From a virus: a stretch of DNA of 64,000 bases. The stretch covers positions 42,180 through 106,179 of IMG/VR virus record IMGVR_UViG_3300027714_000001. One strand, 5' to 3'. The notes under the pieces were generated by a model that was not told the DNA's origin, did no database searches, and saw only the letters and a program-made list of their open reading frames with translations. Both the position numbers and the translations under genes were made by a program. Shown here piece after piece: positions 10,152-44,757 of the stretch (position 1 is its first letter; every line of letters begins with the position of its first letter).

Positions 10152-10166
10152 AATTAAGGAGCAGTA

Positions 10167-10629: not shown

Positions 10630-10634
10630 AATAT

Positions 10635-10709: not shown

Positions 10710-10711
10710 AG

Positions 10712-10750: not shown

Positions 10751-10770
10751 TTAACTAAAGGAGAGTACAC

Positions 10771-11418: not shown

Positions 11419-11424
11419 AAGCAT

Positions 11425-11499: not shown

Positions 11500-11517
11500 A
11501 ATTTATTAAAAAACATG

Positions 11518-11546
11518 TTGCACAATAACCGATAATTCGGTATAAT
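11518..11546 (+). promoter_or_regulatory. Cassette promoter
   Basis: -35 TTGCAC, 17-bp spacer, -10 TATAAT (11541-11546), leader TTTCTGGAATTGAGAAA. Confidence 0.85.
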
Positions 11547-11579
11547 ATGTTTCTGGAATTGAGAAATAGCGAGAAAAAT

Positions 11580-12080: not shown

Positions 12081-12091
12081 TTCGGTATAAT
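12063..12091 (+). promoter_or_regulatory. Cassette promoter inside gene end
   Basis: -35 TTGACA (12063-12068) within the phosphoesterase gene, stop codon in the spacer, -10 TATAAT (12086-12091). Confidence 0.85.
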
Positions 12092-12120
12092 ATGTTTCTG
12101 GAATCGAGAAAGGAAACAAA

Positions 12121-12246
12121 ATGTATAGATTATTGTATAAAGGCGTAATTCATGATGTTCATTGTGATTGGTTTATTTTGCACTCAAAAATGTGTAAAAA
12201 TATTAAACACCACAGCTGGAATGTTGATTTCTGTGAGATAGTATAA
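12121..12246 (+). CDS. Small His/Cys-rich protein (41 aa)
   Basis: ATG right after leader ending GAAAGGAAAC. Five His and three Cys residues in 41 suggest metal binding. Stop overlaps the next start. No family recognised. Confidence 0.5.
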   Translation: MYRLLYKGVIHDVHCDWFILHSKMCKNIKHHSWNVDFCEIV

Positions 12247-12341
12247 TGAAAAAGTTTATGACTAAGTTATTTACTTTCCTGTACTACACCATTCAGTTTG
12301 TAATACTTTATGGTATATTACGTCCCCTAGTAGGAGTATGA
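12246..12341 (+). CDS. Small membrane protein (31 aa)
   Basis: Start overlaps previous stop (TAATG). Basic N-terminus followed by one hydrophobic helix (LFTFLYYTIQFVILYGIL). First of three consecutive membrane peptides. Confidence 0.5.
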   Translation: MKKFMTKLFTFLYYTIQFVILYGILRPLVGV

Positions 12342-12343
12342 AA

Positions 12344-12457
12344 ATGGATAAAACTGATATATTATTTATTATATTAATAGTATTTTTTATAGGATTAACT
12401 GCGGTTAGTGTAAACACTGTTATAAACACTCCGCAAGAAAAGGTACAGTGTGAATGA
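12344..12457 (+). CDS. Small membrane protein (37 aa)
   Basis: One hydrophobic helix (ILFIILIVFFIGLTAV) with an exposed polar C-terminus. Ends overlapping the next ATG. Function unknown. Confidence 0.5.
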   Translation: MDKTDILFIILIVFFIGLTAVSVNTVINTPQEKVQCE

Positions 12458-12549
12458 AAAATAATGTAATACTTCCCATACTAAAAGTAGTGTCAGCAAT
12501 ACTAGTAATGGTTTTAATATGTGTAGTTGCCCTAAGTATAAATACTTAA
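12454..12549 (+). CDS. Small membrane protein (31 aa)
   Basis: ATGA overlap with the previous gene. One hydrophobic helix (VVSAILVMVLICVVALSI). Ends 7 bp before tRNA-Gly. Function unknown. Confidence 0.5.
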   Translation: MKNNVILPILKVVSAILVMVLICVVALSINT

Positions 12550-12556
12550 AAACAAT

Positions 12557-12631
12557 GCGGGCTTGGTGTTAATGGTAGCACGTTGTCCTTCCAAGTCAAA
12601 TGTGCAGGTTCGAATCCTGTAGCCCGTTCCA
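12557..12631 (+). tRNA. tRNA-Gly (TCC)
   Basis: Acceptor GCGGGCT/AGCCCGT. Anticodon loop CTTCCAA gives TCC. T-arm GCAGG-TTCGAAT-CCTGT. Discriminator T, CCA encoded. Confidence 0.9.
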
Positions 12632-12639
12632 AATTATAG

Positions 12640-12716
12640 CAGAATAGCTTATGTCAGGACAAAGCGTATCCTTCGGGGTAAGAATTCGGTTCGAATCCGA
12701 TGTATGCGATCAAACA
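12640..12716 (+). pseudogene. tRNA-like relic
   Basis: A D-arm (AGCTT...AAGC with GG in the loop) and a T-arm (TCGG-TTCGAAT-CCGA) are present, but the acceptor strands pair poorly, the anticodon region is a TTCG tetraloop hairpin and the end is ATCA rather than CCA. Read as a decayed tRNA. Confidence 0.4.
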
Positions 12717-12718
12717 AA

Positions 12719-12794
12719 TACGTGATAGTTTAAATATGAAAAATACAGGCCATTGCGGCTAGAGATGCTAGTGCAAGTCTGGCTCACGTAACCA
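12719..12794 (+). tRNA. tRNA-like molecule of uncertain identity
   Basis: Exactly 76 nt with a perfect acceptor TACGTGA/TCACGTA, discriminator A, CCA and a good T-arm (GCTAG-TGCAAGT-CTGGC). The D-arm lacks GG and the anticodon arm does not pair in the normal register, so no anticodon can be assigned. It could be a degenerate tRNA or a tRNA mimic. Confidence 0.45.
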
Positions 12795-12970
12795 AATTAT
12801 TATAGTAAACTGGTTAATCCACTAATCAAAAATGTAAGCTGCATACCAAAAATTTGCAGGTCAGCGTTGGTTCGCTGAGTAGGATTGATTACCCTATTAC
12901 TTAATTGTGTATATTTGAGTCCCAAGAGGTCTTATGCAACAAATAATTGACTAGTTTACTATAATAATTT
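12794..12970 (+). ncRNA. Candidate structured RNA enclosed by an 18-bp stem
   Basis: 12794-12811 is a perfect reverse complement of 12953-12970. The 5' arm includes the last base of the preceding CCA. There is no gene inside. The transcript probably comes from upstream, since no matching -35 precedes the TATAAT in the 3' arm. Confidence 0.45.
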
Positions 12971-13009
12971 CATAAAGAGATAAAAATGATCAAAGTAATT
13001 GGTAACAAC

Positions 13010-13083
13010 TTTCCCTTAGTTTAATGGTAGAACTATACCCTTTCAAGGTATCAGCGCGAGATCGATACTCGCAGGGAAAACCA
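13010..13083 (+). tRNA. tRNA-Glu (TTC)
   Basis: Perfect acceptor TTTCCCT/AGGGAAA. Anticodon stem ATACC/GGTAT, loop CTTTCAA gives TTC. T-loop ATCGATA (A54). CCA encoded. Confidence 0.85.
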
Positions 13084-13112
13084 AATTCAAGAGTAGAAAA
13101 AGGAAATACATT

Positions 13113-13175
13113 ATGTGGGTAGAAGTAGAAGTAACAACAACAAAAACACATTTAGTAGAAGTAGACAAGCTATGA
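13113..13175 (+). CDS. Leader peptide (20 aa) before methyltransferase-like gene
   Basis: ATG 13113 has AAAAAGGAAA upstream. It encodes a Val/Glu/Thr-rich 20-residue peptide whose TGA overlaps the ATG of the next gene (ATGA). It probably delivers ribosomes to the downstream gene. Confidence 0.45.
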   Translation: MWVEVEVTTTKTHLVEVDKL

Positions 13176-13879
13176 AAACCGCTCTGTTCCTATTCGACTA
13201 CACAGGCATTATGGCAATGCCTTGGGCTGAGGCGGGATATAGCTGTCTTTGCATAGATTCGCAACATCCCAAAGGCAACACCCCATCTAAAGTGCATAAA
13301 AATATAATCTTTGTAGGTCTAGAGATTAATGTTGATATGCCCATATTTCAGATTAGAAAGCTAACAAGTCACATACCTGACTTTATATTTGGATTCCCTC
13401 CTTGTACAGACCTAGCAGTCTCAGGAGCAGCACACTTTAAAAAGAAAGCGGCAGTAAATCCAAACTTTCAGAAAGATGCAATAGCATTATGTAGAACAGT
13501 AGAAACCTTGGGCAATCACTTTGACAGGCCCTGGGCATTAGAAAACCCCGTATCAGTATTAGCTACGCAATGGCGTAAACCTAACTTCTACTTTCACCCT
13601 TACGAGTTTGGTGGATATTTACCAGAAGACGATAAGCACCCTTTTTACCCTGAGTACCTACCTCCTAGAGATTGTTACAGTAAAAAGACAGGTATTTGGC
13701 ACAATGATAAATTCATAGTTCCAACTAAGTTACCTGTAGAGCTTATGACAAAAACTGGAGAATACTCAGCAATGTACTCTAAACTAGGGGGTAAGTCTAT
13801 TAGAACGAAGAACATTCGTTCAGCAACTCCTAGAGGTTTTGCAAATTCTGTATTTGAAGCTAATAAACTTGTTGACTAA
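13172..13879 (+). CDS. DNA cytosine methyltransferase-like protein
   Basis: 235 aa. Features of C5-cytosine methyltransferases in shortened form: N-terminal SAM-type start LFDYTGIMAMPWAEAGY, the FGFPPC catalytic-loop motif at residues 73-78 with SGA following, and ENP at 124-126; C-terminal ATPRGFANSV. Full-size enzymes are longer, so the target-recognition domain is small or absent. Likely modifies phage DNA against restriction; activity unproven. The final VD codons and TAA are part of the next promoter. Confidence 0.7.
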   Translation: MKTALFLFDYTGIMAMPWAEAGYSCLCIDSQHPKGNTPSKVHKNIIFVGLEINVDMPIFQIRKLTSHIPDFIFGFPPCTDLAVSGAAHFKKKAAVNPNFQKDAIALCRTVETLGNHFDRPWALENPVSVLATQWRKPNFYFHPYEFGGYLPEDDKHPFYPEYLPPRDCYSKKTGIWHNDKFIVPTKLPVELMTKTGEYSAMYSKLGGKSIRTKNIRSATPRGFANSVFEANKLVD

Positions 13880-13900
13880 CAGCGCATTGTTTGCTATAAT
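13872..13900 (+). promoter_or_regulatory. Cassette promoter inside gene end
   Basis: -35 TTGACT overlaps the last codons of the preceding gene; -10 TATAAT (13895-13900); leader TTTCTGGAATTGAGAAAAGG. Confidence 0.85.
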
Positions 13901-13931
13901 ATGTTTCTGGAATTGAGAAAAGGAACAAAAA

Positions 13932-14252
13932 ATGTTTGTAAAAGTAATAACCGAAGGTGATTGTGAGGGAAGAACTACTAAAACAGTAGCTATCTTTCAA
14001 TGTGATAATGAAAGACAAGTAGCCTCTTACCTGCTAGCTAATAAAATCAAACCTTATTACCATTTTACGTTTACTCAAGTTCGTAACCCTTTAGAAGATA
14101 TTAGAAATTACGAAGTACCTGCAAATCTAGTTTTAAGCACAGATAACTATGGCAGAGCTAATATCTCTACTGGAGAGACAGAACAAGAACTGTTTATGAA
14201 AACATTAAACGCAGAACAGTTAAGAAAGTATAAAAAACTTATTGCAAAGTAA
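13932..14252 (+). CDS. Hypothetical protein (106 aa)
   Basis: ATG after the cassette leader (AAAAGG). Mixed alpha/beta sequence; no recognised family. A single-gene unit between two cassette promoters; its last codons supply the next -35 box. Confidence 0.6.
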   Translation: MFVKVITEGDCEGRTTKTVAIFQCDNERQVASYLLANKIKPYYHFTFTQVRNPLEDIRNYEVPANLVLSTDNYGRANISTGETEQELFMKTLNAEQLRKYKKLIAK

Positions 14253-14270
14253 CCAAATCTTTGCTATAAT
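14242..14270 (+). promoter_or_regulatory. Cassette promoter inside gene end
   Basis: -35 TTGCAA (14242-14247), stop codon in spacer, -10 TATAAT (14265-14270). Confidence 0.8.
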
Positions 14271-14306
14271 ATGTTTCTGGAATTGAGAAACAAACGATTA
14301 TTTAAA

Positions 14307-14383
14307 CTGGGTGTGGTGACAATTGGACGTCTACTTGCTTTGGAAGCAAGGTCATGTGGGTTCGAACCCCACCTCCCAGACCA
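14307..14383 (+). tRNA. tRNA-Pro (TGG)
   Basis: Acceptor CTGGGTG/CTCCCAG with one mismatch. Anticodon stem CTTGC/GCAAG, loop TTTGGAA gives TGG. T-arm GTGGG-TTCGAAC-CCCAC. CCA encoded. Confidence 0.85.
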
Positions 14384-14397
14384 AATTTAAAAACTTC

Positions 14398-14426
14398 TTG
14401 ACTAATAACCAATAATTCGGTATAAT
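14398..14426 (+). promoter_or_regulatory. Cassette promoter
   Basis: -35 TTGACT, 17-bp spacer, -10 TATAAT (14421-14426), leader TGTAGAAATTAAGAAAAACC. Confidence 0.8.
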
Positions 14427-14588
14427 AGTTGTAGAAATTAAGAAAAACCTACCCACTATACAATACACCAATAAGGGTACGCCCTCGCCTTAATGCAAGG
14501 TATAAGACAGAGTAAGTTATAGGGCGGCAAAGAAGTTGCGACAGATACTTCAAAAATCATCTACCTAGTAGGTGTCTAATCTTTAACT
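14427..14588 (+). ncRNA. Structured leader before tRNA-Asp
   Basis: 160 nt without a gene between a cassette promoter and tRNA-Asp. CCCACTATA near 14453 can pair with TTATAGGG near 14517, and CTTAATGCAAGG-type short stems lie between. Same layout as the leader-plus-RNA units at 4499 and 6270. Confidence 0.4.
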
Positions 14589-14663
14589 GGTGGTATAGTA
14601 TAACGGCAATTATGACGCGTTGTCTGCGCGAAGATCGGGGTTCGATTCCCCGTACCACCGCCA
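14589..14663 (+). tRNA. tRNA-Asp (GTC)
   Basis: Perfect acceptor GGTGGTA/TACCACC. Anticodon loop TTGTCTG gives GTC. T-arm GGGG-TTCGATT-CCCC. Discriminator G, CCA encoded. Confidence 0.9.
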
Positions 14664-14677
14664 CTTTAGGAAATACA

Positions 14678-14959
14678 ATGTTTGAAATGATTAAACAATC
14701 ACCAGACTACTTTCAGATTAATACAAAAACAGGGAAATCAGTCGGTGAGATATACAAAGAATGTGATGGTCTTTATGTGTTCTCATTCACAGATACACCT
14801 AGAGGTTGTTTTGCAGGACATTTCTTTAACTTTGTAGGTACTAGACTTAAAGAGCTAAATGCAGAGTTTTTAGCAGAGACAGAAGAATACTTCGAGGAAC
14901 AAATGAGAAAGCAACTTGCTAAGTCTTTTCATAACCCCTTTTGGCCTGTATATAAGTAA
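14678..14959 (+). CDS. Hypothetical protein (93 aa)
   Basis: ATG 14678 with TTAGGAAA upstream; earlier in-frame codons lie in the tRNA. Beta-rich first half and a long charged helix in the second half (LNAEFLAETEEYFEEQM). No recognised family. Located between tRNA-Asp and tRNA-His. Confidence 0.6.
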   Translation: MFEMIKQSPDYFQINTKTGKSVGEIYKECDGLYVFSFTDTPRGCFAGHFFNFVGTRLKELNAEFLAETEEYFEEQMRKQLAKSFHNPFWPVYK

Positions 14960-14967
14960 TTATTGGT

Positions 14968-15043
14968 GTGAGCGTGGCAGAATGGATGATGTCCTTGATT
15001 GTGATTCAAGATCATGCGGGTTCGAGTCCCGTCGCTCACCCCA
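14968..15043 (+). tRNA. tRNA-His (GTG)
   Basis: Perfect acceptor GTGAGCG/CGCTCAC, discriminator C as in tRNA-His. Anticodon stem CTTGA/TCAAG, loop TTGTGAT gives GTG. The base at -1 is T rather than the encoded G normally found in bacteria. Confidence 0.85.
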
Positions 15044-15054
15044 ATAACTATTTC

Positions 15055-15132
15055 GCGTCGCTAACTCAAATGGTCTAGAGTATCCGGCTTTTAACCGGAA
15101 GGTTCCCAGTTCGAGTCTGGGGCGACGCACCA
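15055..15132 (+). tRNA. tRNA-Lys (TTT)
   Basis: Perfect acceptor GCGTCGC/GCGACGC. Anticodon stem TCCGG/CCGGA, loop CTTTTAA gives TTT. T-arm CCCAG-TTCGAGT-CTGGG. CCA encoded. Confidence 0.9.
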
Positions 15133-15253
15133 ATTTGGCAACTAAATAGCGTAAGGAAATCCATTGCGAGCGCTACAAAAGTTTTAGTTGCAAGTCTTTC
15201 GATAAACTTAGTCCAATATGGATAAGGAAGTTGAAAGGCGGATCTATTTCAAT
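15133..15253 (+). other. Hairpin-rich spacer between tRNAs
   Basis: GCAACTAAA pairs with TTTAGTTGC around an inner TAGCG/CGCTA stem (about 15138-15191), followed by CTTTC/GAAAG (about 15195-15236). No gene. It may be a small structured RNA or a processing spacer. Confidence 0.4.
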
Positions 15254-15330
15254 TGCGAGTTAGAGTTCTGTTGAACTTATCGGTCTCATAAGCCGAATGA
15301 AGGTTGGTTAGATTCCAGCACTCGCTACCA
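15254..15330 (+). tRNA. tRNA with CAT anticodon, atypical
   Basis: Anticodon stem TCGGT/GCCGA, loop CTCATAA gives CAT. T-arm GTTGG-TTAGATT-CCAGC has A in place of the invariant C56. The first acceptor pair is a T-T mismatch and the D-arm is a tight AGTTC/GAACT hairpin without GG. CCA encoded. Possibly Met or Ile2, or a decayed copy. Confidence 0.55.
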
Positions 15331-15336
15331 ATCAAC

Positions 15337-15411
15337 ACTCCTGTAGCTTAACGGCAAAGCGCAGGCTTCTAAACCCTAGAAATGGGAGTTCAACTCTCCC
15401 CAGGAGTACCA
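15337..15411 (+). tRNA. tRNA with CTA (amber suppressor) or TCT (Arg) anticodon
   Basis: Perfect acceptor ACTCCTG/CAGGAGT, D-stem GC/GC, T-arm GGGAG-TTCAACT-CTCCC. With standard arm lengths the anticodon loop is TTCTAAA, giving CTA, with a central AGG/CCT stem. The alternative register CTTCTAA gives TCT but leaves the stem largely unpaired. Confidence 0.6.
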
Positions 15412-15544
15412 AATCAATAAGTATTAGCCGACTGGCTATAAAAATGGAGACGGATATGCGTTCTAACTAGATACCCCCTTGACGACTTTATATTACTAGT
15501 AGTACAACCAAACAGAAAACAACTATTATATAAAGGAATCAAAA

Positions 15545-15868
15545 ATGAACTTAGTAAAATTAAAAATTAAAGTAAAACACCTTGCCCTAGAGCCATCCAT
15601 TATTCGCCATGAAGAACGCAAAGTTAGTGGGATGAACAAATGGGATTTACAGCATCACAGAAAATGGAATGTGCGTAACGAAGCTAGGGCAACACAGTTA
15701 GCGATAGCCTTCTTGAAGGGTAAGCCTTACAAAAGCGTTGAACCTAAACTTAGGGACAAAAATGCAGGACAGCACAACTTGGTATTTCATAGAGTTCTAA
15801 GAATGGCTCAAAAGTATGGTAAGCCAAAAACAACTGCGGTAACTATAACTAACTGGAGGAACGCATAA
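15545..15868 (+). CDS. Conserved phage hypothetical protein (107 aa)
   Basis: Very basic. The opening VKLKIKVKHLALEPSIIRHEE followed by a His/Arg-rich LQHHRKWNVRNEARATQLA helix resembles a protein common in large phages with no assigned function. The charge suggests nucleic-acid or ribosome contact. ATG follows AAAGGAATC; the stop overlaps the next gene. Confidence 0.65.
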   Translation: MNLVKLKIKVKHLALEPSIIRHEERKVSGMNKWDLQHHRKWNVRNEARATQLAIAFLKGKPYKSVEPKLRDKNAGQHNLVFHRVLRMAQKYGKPKTTAVTITNWRNA

Positions 15869-16110
15869 TGGCTAATCACGAACAGAGCTTAAAAGACGCT
15901 AAAGAGCGTGTATGTGACTTGAGATTGTCAATTGAGAAAGCAATAACCGCTTTAGAAGAACTAGAGGGAGCTATATGCGATATTGATAGCTTAGATAACG
16001 TCTCTCTTAGATGGGGGGGACTCGATGTTCAGCCTTATATAAATAACATGATAAATAGCATAGCACTTAGTAGTGCTAAGTTTACTTACGAATTTGAAGA
16101 AAATCTGTAA
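15868..16110 (+). CDS. Hypothetical helical protein (80 aa)
   Basis: Stop-start overlap with the previous gene. Residues 5-40 form a probable coiled coil (AKERVCDLRLSIEKAITALEEL). No family recognised. A cassette promoter begins 8 bp after its stop. Confidence 0.6.
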   Translation: MANHEQSLKDAKERVCDLRLSIEKAITALEELEGAICDIDSLDNVSLRWGGLDVQPYINNMINSIALSSAKFTYEFEENL

Positions 16111-16117
16111 AAACTTA

Positions 16118-16146
16118 TTGACGAATAACCTAAATGTTGCTATAAT
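16118..16146 (+). promoter_or_regulatory. Cassette promoter
   Basis: -35 TTGACG, 17-bp spacer, -10 TATAAT (16141-16146). Confidence 0.8.
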
Positions 16147-16180
16147 AGCTTTTCAAATTGAGAAATAAAGGAAAACTTTT

Positions 16181-16345
16181 ATGGCAAATGTTTATCAAAA
16201 AAATAATTTTAAAGACCGCGCTGACTACTTAGCGTGTTTAGCCGATGATAATGGCGTAGATGTTGTTTTAGTATTAATAGCCGCAGATTTACTTGGGCAA
16301 GAAGAAGACTTTGATGGATTAGTTTCCATGATACAAGATTTATAG
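16181..16345 (+). CDS. Hypothetical small protein (54 aa)
   Basis: ATG 16181 after AAAGGAAAAC, directly downstream of a cassette promoter. Acidic, helical C-terminal half (DVVLVLIAADLLGQEEDF). Its TAG stop overlaps the first bases of tRNA-Gln. No family recognised. Confidence 0.6.
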   Translation: MANVYQKNNFKDRADYLACLADDNGVDVVLVLIAADLLGQEEDFDGLVSMIQDL

Positions 16346-16418
16346 GAGTATGGTCTAATGGTTATGACCTCGGACTTTGACTCCGATAGTGCTGGTTCGA
16401 CTCCAGCTATTCCTTCCA
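16344..16418 (+). tRNA. tRNA-Gln (TTG)
   Basis: Acceptor AGGAGTA/TATTCCT. Anticodon stem TCGGA/TCCGA, loop CTTTGAC gives TTG. T-arm GCTGG-TTCGACT-CCAGC. Discriminator T, CCA encoded. Confidence 0.85.
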
Positions 16419-16424
16419 AACACT

Positions 16425-16499
16425 AGTTTCTTAGTATACTGGCTATTACGCTCGGCTGATAACCGAAAGAAACAGGATCGTAACCTGTAGAAACTACCA
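16425..16499 (+). tRNA. tRNA-Ile (GAT)
   Basis: Perfect acceptor AGTTTCT/AGAAACT. Anticodon stem TCGG/CCGA, loop CTGATAA gives GAT. T-loop ATCGTAA (A54/T58). CCA encoded. Confidence 0.85.
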
Positions 16500-16554
16500 A
16501 TTACGGGGAATCCCTATGGGATGGACGTTCGGGTTGCACCCTTAAAAGAGTAAC

Positions 16555-16665
16555 ATGGAAAAACAAATATGTAAAAAGCTTAACGTTGACCCAAATACTC
16601 TGGCTAGGAAGAGCATTACCTATGAGCAGTTTACTAGACGGTATATGTATTTCTTGTGCATCTAA
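16555..16665 (+). CDS. Possible small ORF overlapping HNH gene (36 aa)
   Basis: ATG 16555 after AAAGAG. Basic, helix-forming sequence that ends inside the HNH gene in another frame. It may be a coupled leader or a remnant of the N-terminal half of the HNH protein. Weak. Confidence 0.3.
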   Translation: MEKQICKKLNVDPNTLARKSITYEQFTRRYMYFLCI

Positions 16666-16885
16666 AAGTGCTAAGTACCGCGCAAGGCTATATAATAGAA
16701 TACCTAGTTGGGCTAACATAGAACAAATAAATGAGTTTTATAGTAATGCTAATGGCTATGAAGTAGATCACATTATTCCATTACACGGAAAATTAGTAAG
16801 GGGACTTCATGTATTAAATAACTTGCAGTATTTAACTAAAGAAGAAAATCAGGAAAAAAGCAATAAATTTATTGTAAACAAATAA
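16622..16885 (+). CDS. HNH endonuclease
   Basis: 87 aa from ATG 16622 (AGGAAG upstream). CISC zinc pair near residue 9, PSWANIEQINEFY, then the HNH core VDHIIPLHG, GLHVLNNLQYL and EEN..KSN. C-terminal three quarters match the HNH at 8906-9139. It sits between tRNA-Ile and tRNA-Ala as a probable free-standing homing endonuclease. Only one of the usual two Cys pairs is present. Confidence 0.75.
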   Translation: MSSLLDGICISCASKSAKYRARLYNRIPSWANIEQINEFYSNANGYEVDHIIPLHGKLVRGLHVLNNLQYLTKEENQEKSNKFIVNK

Positions 16886-16886
16886 T

Positions 16887-16962
16887 GGGGATGTAGTTGT
16901 AATCGGTAAAACGACGCGCTTGCACCGCGTAGTACGGGGATCGTAACCCCGCTTCTCCACCA
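16887..16962 (+). tRNA. tRNA-Ala (TGC)
   Basis: Acceptor GGGGATG/CTTCTCC with one mismatch. Anticodon stem ACGCG/CGCGT, loop CTTGCAC gives TGC. T-loop ATCGTAA (A54/T58). CCA encoded. Confidence 0.85.
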
Positions 16963-16968
16963 AACAAC

Positions 16969-17044
16969 GCAGGCGTAGTCAAAAGGATTGGCACTGGATT
17001 ACGAATCCAGATTAATGTAGGTTCGAGTCCTACCGTCTGTACCA
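16969..17044 (+). tRNA. tRNA-Arg (ACG)
   Basis: Acceptor GCAGGCG/CGTCTGT with two G-T pairs. Anticodon stem CTGGA/TCCAG, loop TTACGAA gives ACG (needs A34 deamination to read all CGN). T-loop TTCGAGT. CCA encoded. Confidence 0.85.
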
Positions 17045-23987: not shown

Positions 23988-25763
23988 ATGAATAGCACAA
24001 TTAACGCAGTAGACTTCTATAAAACAGGCCACGGTCCACAGTACCCCTCTGGTACTGAGTATGTATATTCTAACCTAACCCCCCGATCAGTAAAATACGC
24101 GTCTACCGACCGCATTACAGTGTTTGGCATTCAGTCATTCATTGCAAAACGCCTTATCAAAGAATTTAACGACACATTCTTTAATCAACCATTAAATACA
24201 GTAATACAAAAGTATCAGCGCAGAATGGATAATGCCCTAGGTAAAGGCACAGTTACAACTAAACATTTAAAAGACCTACATAATTTAGGTTTCCTACCTA
24301 TGCACATTAAAGCATTACCTGAAGGTGTGTCTGTAAAGCCACTAATTCCTGTAATGACAATGATCAACACCTTACCAGAGTTTTTCTGGCTAACTAACTA
24401 CCTTGAGACAGTTTGTAGCTGCGATGTTTGGCAACCAATGACCAATATGTCTGTAGCTAGAGAGTATTTCTCCTTACTTACAGGTTTTGCAGAAGATACT
24501 GGTGTAGACCCTGAATTTGTCAAAGTACAGGCACATGATTTCTCAATGCGTGGAATGGCAGGAGTAGAAGCAGCAGCGGCCTCTGGAGCGGCTCATTTAG
24601 CAGCGGGTTTTACAGGAACTGACTGTGTTCCTGCGATTGACTACTTAGAGGATTGGTATTTCGCTGATTCGGACAAAGAAATGGTAGGATGCTCCGTTCC
24701 TGCTACAGAACACAGCGTTATGTGTATGGGAACAAAAGAAGACGAGCAAGCTACGTTTGAACGTATCTTAGACCTATATCCTCAAGGTATTAAGTCCATC
24801 GTGTCAGATACTTGGAACTTGTGGCAGGTCATTACAGAATATGCACCAAATCTTAGAGATAAGATTAACGCCGCAAAAGATATTATGAGTTACGAAGCTT
24901 ACGATTACCAAGAACCTTGTGCAGGTGAGCTACAGTTAGCGTACCAGAAGGGTTTTAAAGTTGTGAAAGTAGCAGACAAGGAATACCGCGCAATAAATAC
25001 TGATTTGCAGGGTACCGTATTTTTAGGTACAGAAATAGAAGCACCTGTGCTGATAGTCCCTGGCAAGACGGTTTTCCGTCCAGACTCGGGCTGCCCTGTT
25101 AAGATTCTTACGGGCTACAAGGCACTAACTAAATATGTTTTTGACAGCGTAGAAGAAGCAATAAGCCACGCTTGCGATTACCCTCAAGATACTTATGATT
25201 TTGAAGTATTTGAAGTAGTAGGAAAAGTTTTTGTTAGACTAAGTGACTATAAACTGGTAAGCGAGCACGAAGTTAAAGGTGTTGTAGAGTTACTGTGGGA
25301 ACAATTTCCTGGACTAGTAAACGCCAAGGGCTATAAAGAGCTAACTAAAGTAGGAGCAATCTATGGAGATTCTATCACACTAGAGCGTGCAGAGCAGATT
25401 ATGCAACGTCTTAAAGATAAAGGTTTTGCTAGCAGCAACGTTGTATTAGGTATTGGTTCGTTTACATACCAATATAACACTCGTGACACCTACGGTATGG
25501 CTGTTAAAGCTACGTGGGGTATGGTAGACGGCGTTCCTAGAGAAATTTTTAAAGACCCTATTACAGACGACGGAACAAAGAAGTCTGCAACTGGGTTGCT
25601 GCGTGTAGAGCTAGAACGTGCAGGCAACAAATTAGTTCCTGAGTATGTTTTATACGACAGACAAACTAAGTATGAAGAAGGCTGCGGAGAGCTAAGAACA
25701 GTATTCTTAGACGGCATTCACATGAATCAACAAACATTAGAAGAAATTAGAGGAACAAGATAA
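23988..25763 (+). CDS. nadV: Nicotinamide phosphoribosyltransferase-like enzyme
   Basis: 591 aa. Nampt/NadV features: N-terminal DFYKTGHGPQYP and YSNLTPRS, FSMRGMAG in the middle, the catalytic-His motif VPATEHSV near residue 243 and FRPDSGCPVKI near 363. Joins nicotinamide to PRPP giving NMN. It is longer than the usual 470-500 aa, with extra sequence in the C-terminal half. It has its own promoter after the Prs-like/HAD pair. If the upstream enzyme makes ADPR-PP, this one would be a Namat of the NARP1 route. Confidence 0.88.
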   Translation: MNSTINAVDFYKTGHGPQYPSGTEYVYSNLTPRSVKYASTDRITVFGIQSFIAKRLIKEFNDTFFNQPLNTVIQKYQRRMDNALGKGTVTTKHLKDLHNLGFLPMHIKALPEGVSVKPLIPVMTMINTLPEFFWLTNYLETVCSCDVWQPMTNMSVAREYFSLLTGFAEDTGVDPEFVKVQAHDFSMRGMAGVEAAAASGAAHLAAGFTGTDCVPAIDYLEDWYFADSDKEMVGCSVPATEHSVMCMGTKEDEQATFERILDLYPQGIKSIVSDTWNLWQVITEYAPNLRDKINAAKDIMSYEAYDYQEPCAGELQLAYQKGFKVVKVADKEYRAINTDLQGTVFLGTEIEAPVLIVPGKTVFRPDSGCPVKILTGYKALTKYVFDSVEEAISHACDYPQDTYDFEVFEVVGKVFVRLSDYKLVSEHEVKGVVELLWEQFPGLVNAKGYKELTKVGAIYGDSITLERAEQIMQRLKDKGFASSNVVLGIGSFTYQYNTRDTYGMAVKATWGMVDGVPREIFKDPITDDGTKKSATGLLRVELERAGNKLVPEYVLYDRQTKYEEGCGELRTVFLDGIHMNQQTLEEIRGTR

Positions 25764-32568: not shown

Positions 32569-32789
32569 CAGAAGAACAGAAGCAACAAATATGGAACGCT
32601 ATAGACGAGCAGACCGAATCACATAGGGAAAGGCCAAAAGAGGCAGCAGAAGCAATATCAGCTATGCTACAGGAAGCATTTGAGTTCGAGCAAATTGCTA
32701 GGCATTTAGCAAATAATGTACCAAACAAGTATGTACTAGAAGTAATCCGACTGTTAAGAAACAGAGTAGCAGAAGGACTAGGGATATGA
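32565..32789 (+). CDS. Hypothetical helical protein (74 aa)
   Basis: ATGA overlap with the upstream gene. Charged, helical, Ala/Glu-rich. Part of a chain of coupled genes ending in the 236-aa gene. Function unknown. Confidence 0.55.
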   Translation: MTEEQKQQIWNAIDEQTESHRERPKEAAEAISAMLQEAFEFEQIARHLANNVPNKYVLEVIRLLRNRVAEGLGI

Positions 32790-33496
32790 GCCAAGAAAGA
32801 GTAGAAGAAATTAAACGTATACAGGCAGAGCTGGAGCTAGAACTAGCCTCTTACACTCCTGTGTCAACCGAGATATTAACCCCCATCATTAATAGAAAAT
32901 ATGTTCTGAATAATAAGTGGAACTACGACTTACTGGAGAAAGATTTCCACAAGCTAAACGGTAGGTACATTCCACTAGATGCGATAAAGAAAATCACTAA
33001 ACGTTTACGTATCAATAGACTGCCGCAGCTAGACGTACCAATTAAAGAACTACAACTGCTAAATCCACTAGGACTAGAAGATGTATTTAAAACGATTAAA
33101 GGTTGCTGGTATTACAACACTGAAATTCCTGCTAGACAGTTAGCAATGCATTTGTTCTTAGGAAAAAAGAATGTTCTAGAAGAAGGACAATCATGTACTA
33201 GGTGGTTTCCAAAGAATACATTGAGAGAAGTTATAAATATTGATAGAGACCCGCTACCATTTTCTGATACAAACCTCAATATTAATGGGATGCCTGACCT
33301 AGATACTAGCTTTCCGTGCGAACCTACACAGGAATGTTTAGATATTTTAAAGACAGGACTAGGCAAGAGACACTTAGTAACAGCTTCAAACTATTACAAC
33401 TACGACCTCATACAATTAGAGCTTTTTATCCAAACGGGGATTAACTACAGGCCATCTGTCAAGGAGTTACAACCCAAACACTTGATCGGCATTTAA
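32786..33496 (+). CDS. Hypothetical protein (236 aa)
   Basis: ATGA overlap with the previous gene; last gene of the left-hand plus-strand block. Begins with a short coiled coil, then a mixed domain with scattered Trp, Cys and His. No family recognised despite its size. Confidence 0.65.
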   Translation: MSQERVEEIKRIQAELELELASYTPVSTEILTPIINRKYVLNNKWNYDLLEKDFHKLNGRYIPLDAIKKITKRLRINRLPQLDVPIKELQLLNPLGLEDVFKTIKGCWYYNTEIPARQLAMHLFLGKKNVLEEGQSCTRWFPKNTLREVINIDRDPLPFSDTNLNINGMPDLDTSFPCEPTQECLDILKTGLGKRHLVTASNYYNYDLIQLELFIQTGINYRPSVKELQPKHLIGI

Positions 33497-33990: not shown

Positions 33991-34104
33991 GTCATAATTG
34001 TTCGCTAATGTCCAAAAGCAGTCAGAATTGCAGTCATAATTGTTCGCTAATGTCCAAAAGCAGTCAGAATTGCAGTCATAATTGTTCGCTAATGTCCAAA
34101 AGCA
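33991..34104 (+). repeat. 42-bp direct repeat, 2.7 copies
   Basis: Identical units start at 33991, 34033 and 34075 (third is partial). Each carries TTCGCTAATGTCC, the reverse complement of the motif arrayed at 43957-44205. Confidence 0.9.
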
Positions 34105-34168
34105 GGGGCCGACCCCATCGGAATAGACAACCCCGTCAGCTCAGAACGGGCTAGGGCGCAGGAGAGCT

Positions 34169-34754: not shown

Positions 34755-34785
34755 GCAAAAAAAAGCCATGCCAATGTGGCACAGC
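34755..34785 (-). terminator. Minus-strand terminator of GcrA-like gene
   Basis: TGCCA/TGGCA hairpin followed, on the minus strand, by eight T residues. Confidence 0.75.
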
Positions 34786-34797
34786 TTTTGCTAGAGC

Positions 34798-35160
34798 TTA
34801 CAGCTCAGTAGCGACTGACAAAGCAGCGAGAGCTTCGTTCAAGCGGTCTAGGTCAGCTTTGCTGGCCTTCTCTAAAGAATCCAACTCGCCTTCCTTAAGG
34901 CTAAGAAAAATTTCAGCAGCCCGCACTAGCGAGATTTTGCGAGTGCCAGTTTTTGAGGTTACAGAAACTTTGACGTTAGGCTCATACAAACCTTCGCTTA
35001 CTAGTTTACCGCGAACCATAGGAATGGTCTTGCCCAAACCTTTTGCGATGCTAGACAAGGCATCGTTTTCGCCTTTGTATTCGCTTTTAAGAGTAGCGAT
35101 TTGCGCAGGAGTCCAAGATACAGATTTTACAGCAGATTTTACAGTTTTTGCATTAGACAT
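34798..35160 (-). CDS. GcrA-like HTH DNA-binding protein (paralogue 1)
   Basis: 120 aa. Residues about 14-60 match a SANT/GcrA-type HTH: WTPAQIATLKSEY, then IAKGLGKTIPMVRGKLVSEGLY. A C-terminal helical domain (EKASKADLDRLNEALAAL) may dimerise. Close paralogue of the protein at 39670-39993, especially at GKTIP.VRGKLV.EG. Three promoters precede it, two of them in a duplicated 71-bp block, implying high expression. A regulator is likely; its target is unknown. Confidence 0.7.
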   Translation of the reverse strand: MSNAKTVKSAVKSVSWTPAQIATLKSEYKGENDALSSIAKGLGKTIPMVRGKLVSEGLYEPNVKVSVTSKTGTRKISLVRAAEIFLSLKEGELDSLEKASKADLDRLNEALAALSVATEL

Positions 35161-35416: not shown

Positions 35417-35470
35417 GCTTTATTTCAAAATAAGGTGAAAATAAAGTTGGCACGGGTCTTGCTAGGAAAA

Positions 35471-36442: not shown

Positions 36443-36469
36443 TTTTCTTCCTAGTTATTCAATACAAGT

Positions 36470-36498
36470 ATTATCTCATAAATAAGCTACGTTGTCTA
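36470..36498 (-). promoter_or_regulatory. Minus-block promoter
   Basis: Extended -10 TGAGATAAT (36470-36475 hexamer), 17-bp spacer, -35 TAGACA (36493-36498). Followed by the shared 5' region ACTTGTATTGAATAACTAGG. Confidence 0.75.
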
Positions 36499-36535
36499 AT
36501 ACCGTTTTAGTATATGCTTATGCATTTTTAGTCTT

Positions 36536-36890: not shown

Positions 36891-37157
36891 TCACCATATA
36901 AAAAATAAAACAACTAAATTCGATGTAATGCCTATTATGCTAGAAACGATATGAAGTTTGCATTTTCTAGTAATTGCGTCAACTAAGTAACAACATAAAG
37001 CAGTTATTAACAAAACTATACTAGCTATAGGCATAGAAACACCTGTTTTTATTGAAACTATTACATTAGGAATATTCATCATTTGCATTAGGCCGAAGCC
37101 TACCCAAGGAATATAAGCAAGCATTGCTTGCTTATATTTATTAAATCTATTTTCCAT
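36891..37157 (-). CDS. Membrane protein (88 aa)
   Basis: Three hydrophobic helices (about residues 14-32, 38-58, 68-88). One-base overlap with the exonuclease gene upstream. Function unknown. Confidence 0.6.
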   Translation of the reverse strand: MENRFNKYKQAMLAYIPWVGFGLMQMMNIPNVIVSIKTGVSMPIASIVLLITALCCYLVDAITRKCKLHIVSSIIGITSNLVVLFFIW

Positions 37158-37912
37158 TATAAAAACTTTACCTCGTTCAAAGTTACATTTTTACCTAGAC
37201 GAATTTTGTCTTTGATTTTTTTTAATTTTTCTTCGTTTAAAATAATTTCTTCTTTGTCTTGGATAAGTCTCCAAGGGTGAGAAATAATACCGTAGTTAAT
37301 TTTCTTACCTAGACCAAGCAATCGGACTAAAAGCTCTTTTTCAATTAGTGCATCATCTAAAGCGGTATGCGACTCTTGAAATTCCCAATCCCCAATGCCG
37401 TATTTATAAGCAACTTCGGCATTAGTTTTATAGTTACCCGCAGGTGAAACATGACCCATTAACTTACACCACTTTTTAAAAGTACGTTGCTGTAGTAATG
37501 TCTCGCAAGATACACGCCACAAATCAAGTTGCTCTCTTTTGCCTATAGCCATAAAGCCACCATATTTACGACCTGTATTACTAATGACCCTAGAATCAAA
37601 AGCTAAATTATAAGCGCAAATAGTAGTGACACCATGATTTTTCATTAGCTTGTTTACGTCATGGCAAATTACAGCCCAGCTTTTTACGTCCATACGGTTG
37701 CATCGGATATTTGGCTTGTAAAAGCTATCGACTTTTTTAAAGTAAAAGGCTTTTTTCATCATCTGGACATTTTCAAAAACTTCCTTTATAATGGAATCAT
37801 ATCTTGCAAGCTCTTTGCCTTCTTTGTCACAAATTACCATACCAAAATCAAAAACTTCACCCGTCAAAGTTGCGGTTTCTGTGTCGATTACTGCGTATAT
37901 TCTTTTAGTCAT
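37157..37912 (-). CDS. DEDDh 3'-5' exonuclease
   Basis: 251 aa. Exo I VIDTET (Asp 10, Glu 12), Exo II AYNLAFDSR (Asp 106), Exo III ESHTALDDA (His 182, Asp 187), the DEDDh set of DnaQ/RNase T-type enzymes. Likely degrades DNA or RNA 3' ends during replication, repair or host nucleic-acid turnover. Two promoters (37942, 38030) precede it. Confidence 0.85.
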   Translation of the reverse strand: MTKRIYAVIDTETATLTGEVFDFGMVICDKEGKELARYDSIIKEVFENVQMMKKAFYFKKVDSFYKPNIRCNRMDVKSWAVICHDVNKLMKNHGVTTICAYNLAFDSRVISNTGRKYGGFMAIGKREQLDLWRVSCETLLQQRTFKKWCKLMGHVSPAGNYKTNAEVAYKYGIGDWEFQESHTALDDALIEKELLVRLLGLGKKINYGIISHPWRLIQDKEEIILNEEKLKKIKDKIRLGKNVTLNEVKFL

Positions 37913-38058: not shown

Positions 38059-38121
38059 CCCTTTATTTTATTTTGTTTTAAATTTAATTTAAAACTAACT
38101 CTGTACCGATTCAACACAAGT

Positions 38122-38150
38122 ATTATCTCATAAATACGTTGGGTTGTCAA
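38122..38150 (-). promoter_or_regulatory. Minus-block promoter
   Basis: Extended -10 TGAGATAAT (38122-38127), 17-bp spacer, -35 TTGACA (38145-38150). The -35 is in the arm of a long inverted repeat. Confidence 0.75.
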
Positions 38151-38200
38151 AGACCGTTTTGGTATAGCTTTGCTTGTTTTTATACCAAAACGGTCTTGAC
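38146..38200. repeat. Long inverted repeat upstream of promoter
   Basis: AGACCGTTTTGGTATA pairs with TATACCAAAACGGTCT around a short loop, extended outward by GTCAA/TTGAC. Located between the promoter at 38122 and GC-rich island 3. Confidence 0.8.
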
Positions 38201-38603: not shown

Positions 38604-39116
38604 TTAATGACCCTCAAAAGGTACGTTTATAGATTGCATACCGATTTTAATAACGGCTTTGCAGTTTGCTAAATTATCATCAATCAAAACCATTTTTTCC
38701 AATTGGCGAAAATCAAAACGGCTAATTAAGTGTGTAGTTTTTAAGTGGTAATCTCTGCGAGAATCATTTTCACCACATCGCGCCATAATTGATTTAGGCT
38801 TTACGTTATTATTAGCTAACCAAGCTTTTGTGTTATCACACATTACGCGAGCTGTACATATATGAAAATCAACTCCCGCTTCCTGTAGTAAGTGAATTGC
38901 CTTAATTAATGGTAAAGCTTTATCTTTTGATACATGTTCGGCGGTTGACATTTCGCGGTACTTGTCAAGGTTTAATGAACCGTCTTTGTTGCAAATCTGT
39001 CTATGACTTGCATCGGCAAAAACTCCGTCCATATCAAAAACAGGAACTTTTTTCGCCATGATTAGGGTAGCGGCTAATTGAGTTGCTGACTTTTTGTTAT
39101 TTTGTAGTGTAAACAT
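38604..39116 (-). CDS. HAD phosphatase resembling the 3'-phosphatase domain of PNKP
   Basis: 170 aa (ATG 39059 is an alternative start, giving MAKKVPVFDMD). HAD motif I FDMDGVFADASHR (Asp 28, Asp 30), motif II ICTAR, motif III MARCGENDSRRDYHLK and motif IV LIDDNLANC. The TAR...TKAWL and MAR...D.RRD...K pattern is that of T4 polynucleotide kinase-phosphatase, without the kinase half. It may remove 3' or cyclic phosphates from RNA or DNA, or be a nucleotidase. Confidence 0.7.
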   Translation of the reverse strand: MFTLQNNKKSATQLAATLIMAKKVPVFDMDGVFADASHRQICNKDGSLNLDKYREMSTAEHVSKDKALPLIKAIHLLQEAGVDFHICTARVMCDNTKAWLANNNVKPKSIMARCGENDSRRDYHLKTTHLISRFDFRQLEKMVLIDDNLANCKAVIKIGMQSINVPFEGH

Positions 39117-39299: not shown

Positions 39300-39329
39300 T
39301 TAAAGTTTTCCTAGTTATTCAATACAAGT

Positions 39330-39358
39330 ATTATCTCATAAAAGTATCGTGTTGTCCA
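39330..39358 (-). promoter_or_regulatory. Minus-block promoter
   Basis: Extended -10 TGAGATAAT (39330-39335), 17-bp spacer, -35 TGGACA (39353-39358). TTTTAGTAT/ATACTAAAA hairpin lies just upstream. Confidence 0.7.
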
Positions 39359-39392
39359 CCGCTATTTTAGTATATGGCATACTAAAAAGTTA

Positions 39393-39669: not shown

Positions 39670-39993
39670 TTAAGCTTCTACCAGAGCCTGCACAGCATCT
39701 AGGATGGTTTCAAGATCAGATTTTGATGCCTTCTCAAAGCTGGTAACTTCTTCAACACCTAGCAAGTCAGAGATTGCTTGCACTAGGGTGATTTTACGAA
39801 CCGCCCTGCTAACGCTAGGGGATGCGCTTTTTGCTTTAGCAACATAAACACCTTCGGCAACAAGCTTGCCACGTACTTGCGGGATAGTCTTGCCCATGTC
39901 TTTAGCGATAGTTGCAATTGCAACGCCTTCCTGATACTTAGCAGTCATAGCGGCAACAGATTCGGTAGTATAAGCGGTAGATTTAGTAGTCAT
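39670..39993 (-). CDS. GcrA-like HTH DNA-binding protein (paralogue 2)
   Basis: 107 aa. HTH region YTTESVAAMTAKYQEGVAI followed by IAKDMGKTIPQVRGKLVAEGVY; C-terminal EKASKSDLETILDAVQAL helix. Same build as the protein at 34798-35160. Own promoter at 40029 and own strong terminator, so expressed as a single gene. Probable transcription or nucleoid regulator; target unknown. Confidence 0.7.
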   Translation of the reverse strand: MTTKSTAYTTESVAAMTAKYQEGVAIATIAKDMGKTIPQVRGKLVAEGVYVAKAKSASPSVSRAVRKITLVQAISDLLGVEEVTSFEKASKSDLETILDAVQALVEA

Positions 39994-40449: not shown

Positions 40450-40478
40450 GGGGTTCTTCCTAGTTATTCAATACAAGT

Positions 40479-40507
40479 ATTATCTCATAAAAGTATTGTG
40501 TGGTCTA
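40479..40507 (-). promoter_or_regulatory. Minus-block promoter
   Basis: Extended -10 TGAGATAAT (40479-40484), 17-bp spacer, -35 TAGACC (40502-40507). Confidence 0.7.
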
Positions 40508-40542
40508 ATAACATTTTCGCATAAGCTTAGATCAAAATGATC

Positions 40543-40567
40543 TTGACAGCGGCGGCGAGCCGCGCGC
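40543..40567. other. GC-rich island 5
   Basis: TTGACAGCGGCGGCGAGCCGCGCGC, only the left half of the islands seen elsewhere; the right half is replaced by the 13-bp repeat array. Confidence 0.5.
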
Positions 40568-40632
40568 ACCTAATATTTGCACCTAATATTTGCACCTAAT
40601 ATTTGCACCTAATATTTGCACCTAATATTTGC
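40568..40632. repeat. 13-bp tandem repeat, five copies
   Basis: ACCTAATATTTGC repeated exactly five times. Contains the palindrome AATATT. Lies immediately 3' of the minus gene at 40635-40898. Confidence 0.95.
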
Positions 40633-40634
40633 AC

Positions 40635-40898
40635 CTATAAGTTTTGTACATAAGTAGTCCCAAACTCAAGAGGGATCTGCCCCGTCTTTTTGTTGATGAA
40701 ATTTTGAACGATTGGCTGAAAATCGAAATTCTTAGCAATGCTCTTATATACCCCCACATCGGTCAAATCTGCAAGCACGTTAGCCGCTACAAGCTCATTA
40801 AGTATTTTTAGACCCTTAGTTACACTATCAACCTTAAACGTCTTAGAAGGCATCCTAGAGCTTGATTCTGAAAAAACCCGAATTGCTATTGTTGACAT
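40635..40898 (-). CDS. Hypothetical protein (87 aa)
   Basis: ATG 40898 with AAAGGGTATAAC upstream. Basic N-terminal beta strand, helical middle. Ends at the edge of the 13-bp repeats. No family recognised. Confidence 0.6.
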   Translation of the reverse strand: MSTIAIRVFSESSSRMPSKTFKVDSVTKGLKILNELVAANVLADLTDVGVYKSIAKNFDFQPIVQNFINKKTGQIPLEFGTTYVQNL

Positions 40899-40989: not shown

Positions 40990-41460
40990 TTAGATACTTG
41001 TCAATAATTCATTTATCAATTTATTGATTCTATCAATGTCAAGGTCAATATTATTTAATTCAAATTTTTCTTGCTTTTTATTATATATCACTTGTAACGC
41101 TTTGTGTACCGTTTTTTCGTATTTGCCATTTATTTCTTCAAGTTTCTTCGTAAGTTCTTTACGAGCTTTTGAGCAGCTTTCTAGCGCGTATTTATCTGCC
41201 AGATTATTAAATTCAACATCATCCGTTATAACAAAAACAGTCACTAATGAGTCACTATCAACCAAAACGTTATAACGTCTTAGTGCTTGATATGGGTGAA
41301 AAGATTTACCCACTTTGCAAGCCCATTTTATGTTATTTTTGCCCAAAAAACTACCCACCGGCACTGAATATATGGTGTTAGCTAATTTGCCTATTTTGTG
41401 ATCAGATTGGTGATTTTTTAGGCTTTTTTGGATTGCTCGTATTTTCATCGTTTTTCTCAT
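40990..41460 (-). CDS. Hypothetical basic protein next to the origin (156 aa)
   Basis: Basic N-terminal 60 residues and a long coiled-coil middle (LTKKLEEINGKYEKTVHKAL), acidic C-terminus. It is the gene nearest to the DnaA-box cluster and reads away from it. An initiator-accessory role is possible by position only. Weak promoter TTGCAA (41506), 18 bp, TTATAT. Confidence 0.6.
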   Translation of the reverse strand: MRKTMKIRAIQKSLKNHQSDHKIGKLANTIYSVPVGSFLGKNNIKWACKVGKSFHPYQALRRYNVLVDSDSLVTVFVITDDVEFNNLADKYALESCSKARKELTKKLEEINGKYEKTVHKALQVIYNKKQEKFELNNIDLDIDRINKLINELLTSI

Positions 41461-41515
41461 TTAATTGATTAGGTATTACCTATATAATGCAACCTACGTG
41501 CCAAGTTGCAAAATA

Positions 41516-41544
41516 GGTAAGTCGTTGATTTATAAGGGTTTTTA
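41516..41544 (+). repeat. 29-bp direct repeat near origin, copy 1
   Basis: GGTAAGTCGTTGATTTATAA followed by GGGTTTTTA; identical to copy 2 at 41629-41657, 113 bp apart. Confidence 0.9.
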
Positions 41545-41628
41545 TATTCTAGCTAATTGAATAGTTGGCATGATGACATTTTATGCACCTGAATAGTGCA
41601 ATGATTCCTGATTATAGTGCACCACTTT

Positions 41629-41657
41629 GGTAAGTCGTTGATTTATAAGGGTTTTTA
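41629..41657 (+). repeat. 29-bp direct repeat near origin, copy 2
   Basis: Second identical copy of the repeat at 41516. Confidence 0.9.
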
Positions 41658-41930
41658 ACCTTTTTGAGATGCACCAAAAACTGACATACCAAAAACACAA
41701 AAAACGTGTTAAGTCTAATAACAAATTAATCAAAAAATAAACAAAAAAGTATTGGACATTTGAAAATCATAGCAAAAAACTTATCCACAGGTTATCCACA
41801 CACTTATACATCTGGGGATAAAAAGCGGCTTTTTAAAATGTCAACCTTTTATTTTAGCTCTCTCAGTGAGTTATACAGAACTTACCCACAGGGTTATCCA
41901 CAGGCTGTTGGGTTGTGGGTAACCTGTTAG

Positions 41931-43863: not shown

Positions 43864-43941
43864 GACCCATTTCCAAACGCGATATAGGGTATTTTCAAAA
43901 AAGTGGAGAGGCGCGACAAATATCGGCTGAGGAGACCCTCA

Positions 43942-44205
43942 CTACGGTTCTCTGCGGGACATTAGCGAACGGGGTATACTATTTCTACTACGGTTCTCTG
44001 CGGGACATTAGCGAACGGGGTATACTATTTCTACTACGGTTCTCTGCGGGACATTAGCGAACGGGGTATACTATTTCTACTACGGTTCTTTGCGGGACAT
44101 TAGCGAACGGGGTATACTATTTCTACTACGGTTCTCTGTGGAACATTAGCGAACGGGGTATACTATTTCTACTTTGCAGTAGCCTGAGCCAGGACATTAG
44201 CGAAC
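43942..44205 (+). repeat. 46-bp tandem repeat array with GGACATTAGCGAAC motif
   Basis: Motif copies at 43957, 44003, 44049, 44095, 44141 (one substitution) and 44192. The first five lie in near-identical 46-bp units that also carry CTACGGTTCT and GGGGTATACTAT. Located 40 bp before the late promoter. No spacers of CRISPR type. Confidence 0.9.
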
Positions 44206-44242: not shown

Positions 44243-44271
44243 TTGACAGGATATTTCTGGAGATGTATAAT
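44243..44271 (+). promoter_or_regulatory. Late-operon promoter
   Basis: -35 TTGACA (44243-44248), 17-bp spacer, -10 TATAAT (44266-44271), just downstream of the motif array; drives terminase and head genes. Confidence 0.85.
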
Positions 44272-44292
44272 GCAAGTATAGAGGAGAAATAC

Positions 44293-44757
44293 ATGGACAA
44301 CGAAATAACCGTGATAAGCCCCGAGGGGTTGGAGATAGCACACTGTTATCTGCAAAATAATAGTGACTCGGTTAAGACTGCCGAATTACTTAATATAGAC
44401 ATTACAGAAGTCGACAGATACTTGTGCAAGCGGGAAGTACGAGGATACATTGATAGACTATTTAACGAATCGGGCTTCCGAAATCGTGATAAGATGGCCA
44501 ATGTTTGGGACGCAATCCTAGCAGCCAAGTTGGAAGAAATGGACGATACAGGTATGGGCTCGTCAAAAGATATTGTAGAGATAATGGAGAAGATTCATAA
44601 ATTTAACCTAGACCAAATGAATATGCAACTAAAAATACTAGAACTGGAGAAATCCAAGGAGCCCGCAGTGGTGGTCAATACGCAGAACAACTACGGTGGG
44701 GCAAATTATAACAGTTTAATGGAAAAGATATTAGCAGGTAAAAATGGAGATAAGTAG
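44293..44757 (+). CDS. Terminase small subunit
   Basis: 154 aa from ATG 44293 with GAGGAG upstream. N-terminal HTH-like region (SVKTAELLNIDITEVDRYL) for pac/cos recognition and a helical oligomerisation part (IVEIMEKIHKFNLDQMNMQL). Overlaps the large-subunit gene by 14 bp. Family call rests on helix pattern and position. Confidence 0.75.
   Translation: MDNEITVISPEGLEIAHCYLQNNSDSVKTAELLNIDITEVDRYLCKREVRGYIDRLFNESGFRNRDKMANVWDAILAAKLEEMDDTGMGSSKDIVEIMEKIHKFNLDQMNMQLKILELEKSKEPAVVVNTQNNYGGANYNSLMEKILAGKNGDK

Follow-up and report, generated by a model that had tools for sequence, protein, structure and literature searches.

The non-coding segment at positions 41500-41930 of the window (the whole 64-kb stretch of DNA analysed, bases 42180-106179 of a 106,179-base IMG/VR record) carries predicted sites for several host proteins, and we give about an even chance to the reading that it is a docking and control region for host regulators in the pre-early DNA of a T5-like phage. 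Direct reading of the sequence shows that the sites are present, enriched, limited to one part of the genome and conserved in related phages, and it gives the geometry of an adjacent putative promoter. An earlier note on this DNA had described the segment as a DnaA-box origin of replication in a phage. Both the boxes and the phage are borne out, but an origin is not the best reading of the segment, given its probable location in a terminal repeat, the sites of other regulators around it and the presence of an origin-binding protein of the phage's own.

Judging from its gene content, the phage is T5-like (Demerecviridae). The terminase, portal, major tail and tape-measure proteins are of T5 type and in T5 order, with the large terminase subunit best matched by that of Vibrio phage VspSw_1 (56% identical), and the rest of the record encodes T5-type replication genes, namely a family A polymerase, a primase and a D10-type helicase. 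An SbcCD-like pair, assigned solely by reading the sequences, is also present. A 916-aa protein matches a replication origin binding family (phrog_3712, E 1.7e-219), and because of this match the phage has a candidate initiator of its own. At the nucleotide level, a search with the flagged segment and 24 kb around it against named phages gave no match. Other features of the window include twenty tRNA genes (702-17044), among them a tRNA-Pyl call with anticodon CTA at 15337-15411 that is possibly an amber suppressor, and a 591-aa nicotinamide phosphoribosyl transferase homologue of NAD metabolism (phrog_448, 23988-25763).

Six DnaA or DnaA-like boxes span 142 bp (41781-41922). The three perfect copies of TTATCCACA lie on the plus strand at 41781-41789, 41792-41800 and 41894-41902, and two one-mismatch copies of TTACCCACA lie at 41882-41890 (plus strand) and 41914-41922 (minus strand). 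These five, which the earlier note had placed within 145 bp, are all found where it located them; a sixth, the one-mismatch TTATCCCCA at 41813-41821 on the minus strand, had been overlooked. The AT-rich segment that it had described beside the boxes is likewise present, abutting them at about 41690-41780; its AT content over 90 bp is as high as 79%, which is matched in 0.3% of the windows across the 64 kb. So are its two 29-bp direct repeats, which are identical plus-strand copies of GGTAAGTCGTTGATTTATAAGGGTTTTTA at 41516-41544 and 41629-41657, 113 bp apart. All five occurrences of TTAYCCACA in the window fall inside the cluster; shuffled windows averaged 1.0, and in 60 shuffles no two came within 145 bp of each other. 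One-mismatch near-matches to the DnaA box are at chance level across the window as a whole. The 106-kb record contains a fourth perfect TTATCCACA outside the cluster, at record position 6366, so that three of its four perfect boxes fall in the inferred terminal repeat.

Sites for a second regulatory system overlap the flagged segment on the strand opposite to the one on which the earlier note had read it. A -24/-12 element, TGGCACGTAGGTTGCA, that is perfect to the sigma-54 pattern TGGCAYRN4TTGCW lies at 41488-41503 on the minus strand, 28 nt ahead of the start codon of the minus-strand ORF 40990-41460. An NtrC-type dyad, TGCACTATTCAGGTGCA, perfect to TGCACYN5GGTGCA and the sole one in the 106-kb record, is found 80 bp upstream of this element at 41584-41600 on the same strand, with a weaker NtrC-like site (3 mismatches) behind it at 41618-41634, also on the minus strand. 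The first copy of the 29-bp repeat falls between the dyad and the element. In promoters of the glnAp2 type, an NtrC enhancer stands upstream of a sigma-54 element, and NtrC enhancers lie about 100-150 bp upstream of the start site, in agreement with the position of the dyad. The predicted arrangement thus has glnA-like spacing and shares with glnAp2 a perfect TGGCACGN4TTGCA element, a TGCACYN5GGTGCA dyad, canonical spacing and a position ahead of a gene. It differs in having one strong dyad and in lying in a phage pre-early region and not at a nitrogen-assimilation gene.

Counting this one, the record has three sigma-54 elements, and each of them falls within the pre-early region (reversed pattern, 0); the other two are TGGCACGGGTCTTGCT at 35448-35463 and TGGCACAGCTTTTGCT at 34777-34792, both on the plus strand. 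Good sigma-70 promoters precede several pre-early genes, including the gene at 37157 (TTGACA-17-TATAAT), the dmp-like gene and the second A2-like gene (TTGACT-17-TATAAT), and are found at both A2-like genes, whereas the best sigma-70 match ahead of ORF 40990-41460 is at background level. The TTGGCA inside the sigma-54 element might double as a -35 box, which counts against the sigma-54 reading; the element at 41488-41503 was considered as a sigma-70 promoter and rejected, as it has no good -10 at the proper spacing. It should be noted that the specificities of the host's DnaA, NtrC and sigma-54 are assumed to fit the consensuses used.

The segment lies among small minus-strand genes that follow one another from about 34.8 to 43.2 kb. 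Two of these are A2-like (34798-35160, E 1.4e-9 with a profile of nine A2 proteins; 39670-39993, E 3.8e-7) and one is dmp-like (38604-39116, E 2.8e-16 with a deoxynucleoside monophosphatase profile); A1 was not detected in this phage. The first gene past the sigma-54 element, ORF 40990-41460 (156 aa), is a pre-early ORF with no known relatives, and an IMG/VR search with the proteins encoded at 32786-33493, 38604-39113 and 40990-41457 found no relatives of any of them. In T5-like phages the pre-early genes are in the terminal repeat, adjoining the terminase genes, and the plus-strand gene for the terminase small subunit, a landmark that adjoins the repeat in such phages, is located here at 44263-44757. 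The probable edges of the repeat are marked by two tandem arrays 10 kb apart, a 42-bp array containing GTTCGCTAATGTCC at 33991-34105 on the left and its inverted counterpart, a 46-bp array containing GGGACATTAGCGAAC, at 43941-44173 on the right; both share GTTCGCTAATGTCC, in opposite orientation. Two further assemblies of this phage (L005 and L006) end at the left edge of the right-hand array. These breaks, at about 43970, were considered as proof of the repeat edge, and their value is weakened in that a tandem array would break assemblies anyway. Terminal repeats elsewhere measure about 10 kb (T5, Sugarland and phiR2-01) or 7.4 kb (VF16), and the assembly shows one collapsed copy of the putative repeat. 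From synteny, the inverted arrays and the contig breaks, we infer that the DnaA cluster sits in a terminal repeat and that this repeat is injected ahead of the other DNA.

Several further repeats occur in this region. A 13-bp repeat, GCACCTAATATTT, is present in five and a half copies between pre-early genes (40566-40637), each copy holding a TGCACC half-site that resembles that of NtrC. An element containing ACAAGTATTATCTCATA (GAGATAATACTTGT on the minus strand) occurs at 36445-36520, 38097-38172, 39305-39380 and 40454-40529; it precedes several pre-early genes and forms a sigma-70-like promoter at two of its copies. In the partial relative G001 (L008), the closest relative having a pre-early region, exonuclease-like genes (99-842 and 3553-4227) and A2-like genes (1464-1829 and 4454-4810) are duplicated within that region; the exonuclease-like gene is also found in the window, at 37157-37912.

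The same association of host-regulator sites with first-injected DNA is found across the family. In whole-record scans of 13 T5-like records, 61 of 71 perfect copies of TTATCCACA fall in terminal-repeat regions; the repeat is an annotated feature in T5, Sugarland, phiR2-01 and VF16 and was deduced in the other records. All perfect boxes lie in the repeat region in T5, Sugarland, phiR2-01, PM135, VspSw_1, 70E37.1, PG07 and G001; it holds some or most of them in this phage, VF16, Morian, pVp-1 and AhSzq-1. Two gaps contain the boxes: one precedes the A2-A1-dmp operon, and the other coincides with the injection-stop signal or lies close to it; for example, the third DnaA box of T5 is inside its annotated iss (9140-10149), which also holds a LexA box and Fur-like sites. 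DnaA boxes are included among the T5 ISS features listed in a 2026 paper that cites Heusterspreute 1987 (PMC13250531). DnaA boxes in the first-injected DNA are therefore an already known feature of the T5 family, and what is new here is that they are accompanied by other host-regulator sites that hardly occur outside this region, although the older T5 literature may already note the LexA and Fur sites. Like T5, this phage has non-coding, repeat-rich pre-early DNA by the terminase genes, to which perfect DnaA boxes are confined in T5. It differs from T5 in having one tight six-box cluster where T5 has a pair plus a single box, NtrC and sigma-54 sites in place of LexA and Fur boxes, and two A2-like genes with A1 undetected.

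LexA-like (TACTGTATAAATATACAGTA), Fur-like and sigma-54-like sequences were found alongside when the context of every DnaA box was inspected. The 13 repeat regions (116 kb) were then scanned with about 70 regulator and sigma-factor consensuses, the counts being compared with the scaled rest of the genomes and with shuffles (given below in that order); related phages among the 13 are non-independent samples in all of these counts. Enrichment was seen for DnaA (47 versus 0.6 and 1.0), LexA (19 versus 0 and 0.1) and sigma-54 (31 versus 0 and 0.5). Fur sites (56 versus 5 and 6.1) were also enriched but noisier, with reversed-pattern controls giving up to 4 in one record. Enriched too were MetJ sites (34 versus 6.3 and 1.9), in the form of tandem 8-bp met boxes, and, in smaller numbers, CRP (7 versus 1.3 and 0.8) and NtrC (3 versus 0 and 0.4, in two phages). 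Weaker signals came from CpxR, GalR and MqsA; FNR, ArgR, TyrR, TrpR, PhoB, GlpR, PdhR, IscR, NarP, ZntR and most of the remaining consensuses were not clearly enriched in the same scan. The recombination sequence Chi (GCTGGTGG) was enriched as well (19 versus 2.5 and 2.1). In whole-record scans, 35 of 35 sigma-54 matches (reversed-pattern control, 1) and every LexA match, in 22 places at up to 3 mismatches (reversed-pattern control, 0), were in the repeat region.

The set of regulator sites varies by lineage while their location is constant. Enteric T5-like phages combine DnaA with LexA and Fur; Vibrio phages combine DnaA with sigma-54 and mostly LexA too; and the Aeromonas phage has DnaA, sigma-54 and Fur sites together with a long met-box array. 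Sigma-54 elements were found in none of T5, Sugarland, phiR2-01 and PM135, and neither LexA nor Fur boxes were found at up to 3 mismatches in this phage or G001. In the Aeromonas phage AhSzq-1 (L027), about 23 tandem 8-bp met boxes stand beside DnaA and sigma-54 sites at 8800-9015, far exceeding the number in host operators. In several relatives the sigma-54-type motifs are in tandem, inside genes or pointing away from genes, and because of this not all of them can be promoters.

Composite patterns were also searched for in 2.9 million viral contigs. A DnaA and LexA composite was found in 46 stretches on 26 contigs, 25 of which are 103-128 kb long, and A1, A2 or dmp genes are present in 27 of these stretches. 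The NtrC/sigma-54 composite was found in 29 stretches of IMG/VR (scrambled control, 0); in seven of them the NtrC dyad is preceded by 4-9 DnaA boxes within about 650 bp, in a search whose pattern did not require DnaA boxes. Where inspected among these seven, the array separates terS from divergent genes; in L103 the latter include genes, assigned by eye, for a single-strand-binding-like protein and a primase-helicase-like one. On environmental viral contigs of phages outside the T5-like group, seven to nine DnaA boxes with NtrC and sigma-54 sites have this position between terS and the divergent genes, at L084 12733-13354, L103 1010-1307 and L109 3140-3882. Some T7-like phages likewise have arrays of several non-coding copies of TTATCCACA close to or at an end of the genome, namely Shigella phage VB_Ship_A7 (L112 18-149), Klebsiella phage vB_KpnP_ZK1 (L113 19-198) and Escherichia phage P483 (L114 3501-3632). 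These differ from the present phage in that their genomes are unrelated, their arrays are denser and neither an NtrC nor a sigma-54 site was found there.

Taken as a control region, the segment would be non-coding DNA within the part of the genome that is injected first, with sites for proteins that the host already contains. Protein binding, as well as every functional step, we infer from the sites. On DNA entry, resident DnaA, NtrC and sigma-54 RNA polymerase would bind immediately; NtrC and sigma-54 would switch on ORF 40990-41460, and DnaA on the cluster may act as a local regulator or an architectural block upstream. Resident regulators would thereby control pre-early transcription and perhaps the halt between two transfer steps, and relatives may follow the same plan with lineage-specific sets of sites.

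An origin dependent on DnaA, in which the host protein would bind the cluster, melt the AT-rich tract and load a replisome, has some probability because an AT-rich flank adjoins the boxes, but we consider it unlikely. Clustered DnaA boxes beside an AT-rich tract are a feature shared with bacterial oriC-type origins. AT-rich flanks adjoin the boxes in many relatives, where they frequently rank with the repeat's most AT-rich windows, and unrelated small phages have arrays of 4-9 boxes near their genome ends. However, this phage differs from oriC in possessing its own origin-binding protein, along with a primase and polymerase, and in carrying sites of other regulators; in the named relatives, the boxes are in the terminal repeat among near-perfect sites of regulators that have no role in initiation. 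T5 origins, moreover, were placed mainly in the genome interior by electron microscopy.

A role as the injection-stop signal is also improbable in our view. According to this model, host proteins on the boxes would build a nucleoprotein barrier holding the DNA, or halting the RNA polymerase that reels it in, after the first transfer step. It draws on the DnaA, LexA and Fur-like sites within the annotated T5 iss and on the published listing of DnaA boxes among ISS features (PMC13250531), and the met boxes arranged in tandem (23 in the Aeromonas phage), like the tandem sigma-54 elements, look more like arrays to be coated by protein than like operators. Yet the same boxes are also present in the other gap, next to the A2 operon, and transfer is not halted there. 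In this phage about 2 kb separate the cluster from the putative edge of the repeat, and the gap at 33.5-34.8 kb, which looks more iss-like, has no DnaA box.

The earlier note had also proposed titration of host DnaA to stop host replication, and a decoy that titrates host regulators is in our judgement very unlikely. Several regulators are targeted by near-consensus sites and arrays, as a decoy would have it, but a cell contains roughly a thousand DnaA molecules, against which the 3-6 boxes of each entering genome would be negligible before phage replication; by the time the phage replicates, T5 host DNA is already under degradation. DnaA titration early in infection is thus implausible. Chance or composition can practically be dismissed: AT-rich non-coding DNA does inflate near-matches, as the chance-level count of one-mismatch boxes across the window attests, but the cluster is absent from shuffles and conserved in the family, and 2.9 million contigs gave no hit to the scrambled composite, controls that refute chance for DnaA, LexA and sigma-54.

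Returning to the docking and control region, a broader proposal can be made, which we put forward tentatively and hold to be somewhat short of probable. Virulent phages of several unrelated groups may equip their first-entering DNA with dense high-affinity sites for host global regulators (DnaA, LexA, Fur, MetJ, NtrC/sigma-54 and CRP), used as docking points for early transcription or stepwise entry, with a set suited to the host group and with regulators that can replace one another. Injection by T5 halts once about 8% of the genome is in, and both this halt and pre-early control have been open questions for decades. If first-entering DNA does carry many sites for resident host regulators, the T5 stop and pre-early control would become testable with T5 and ordinary E. 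coli mutants such as lexA, fur, metJ, rpoN and dnaA(ts), and phage DnaA boxes should not by default be taken as origins. Some environmental phages would, moreover, tie their early expression to host nitrogen status through NtrC and sigma-54.
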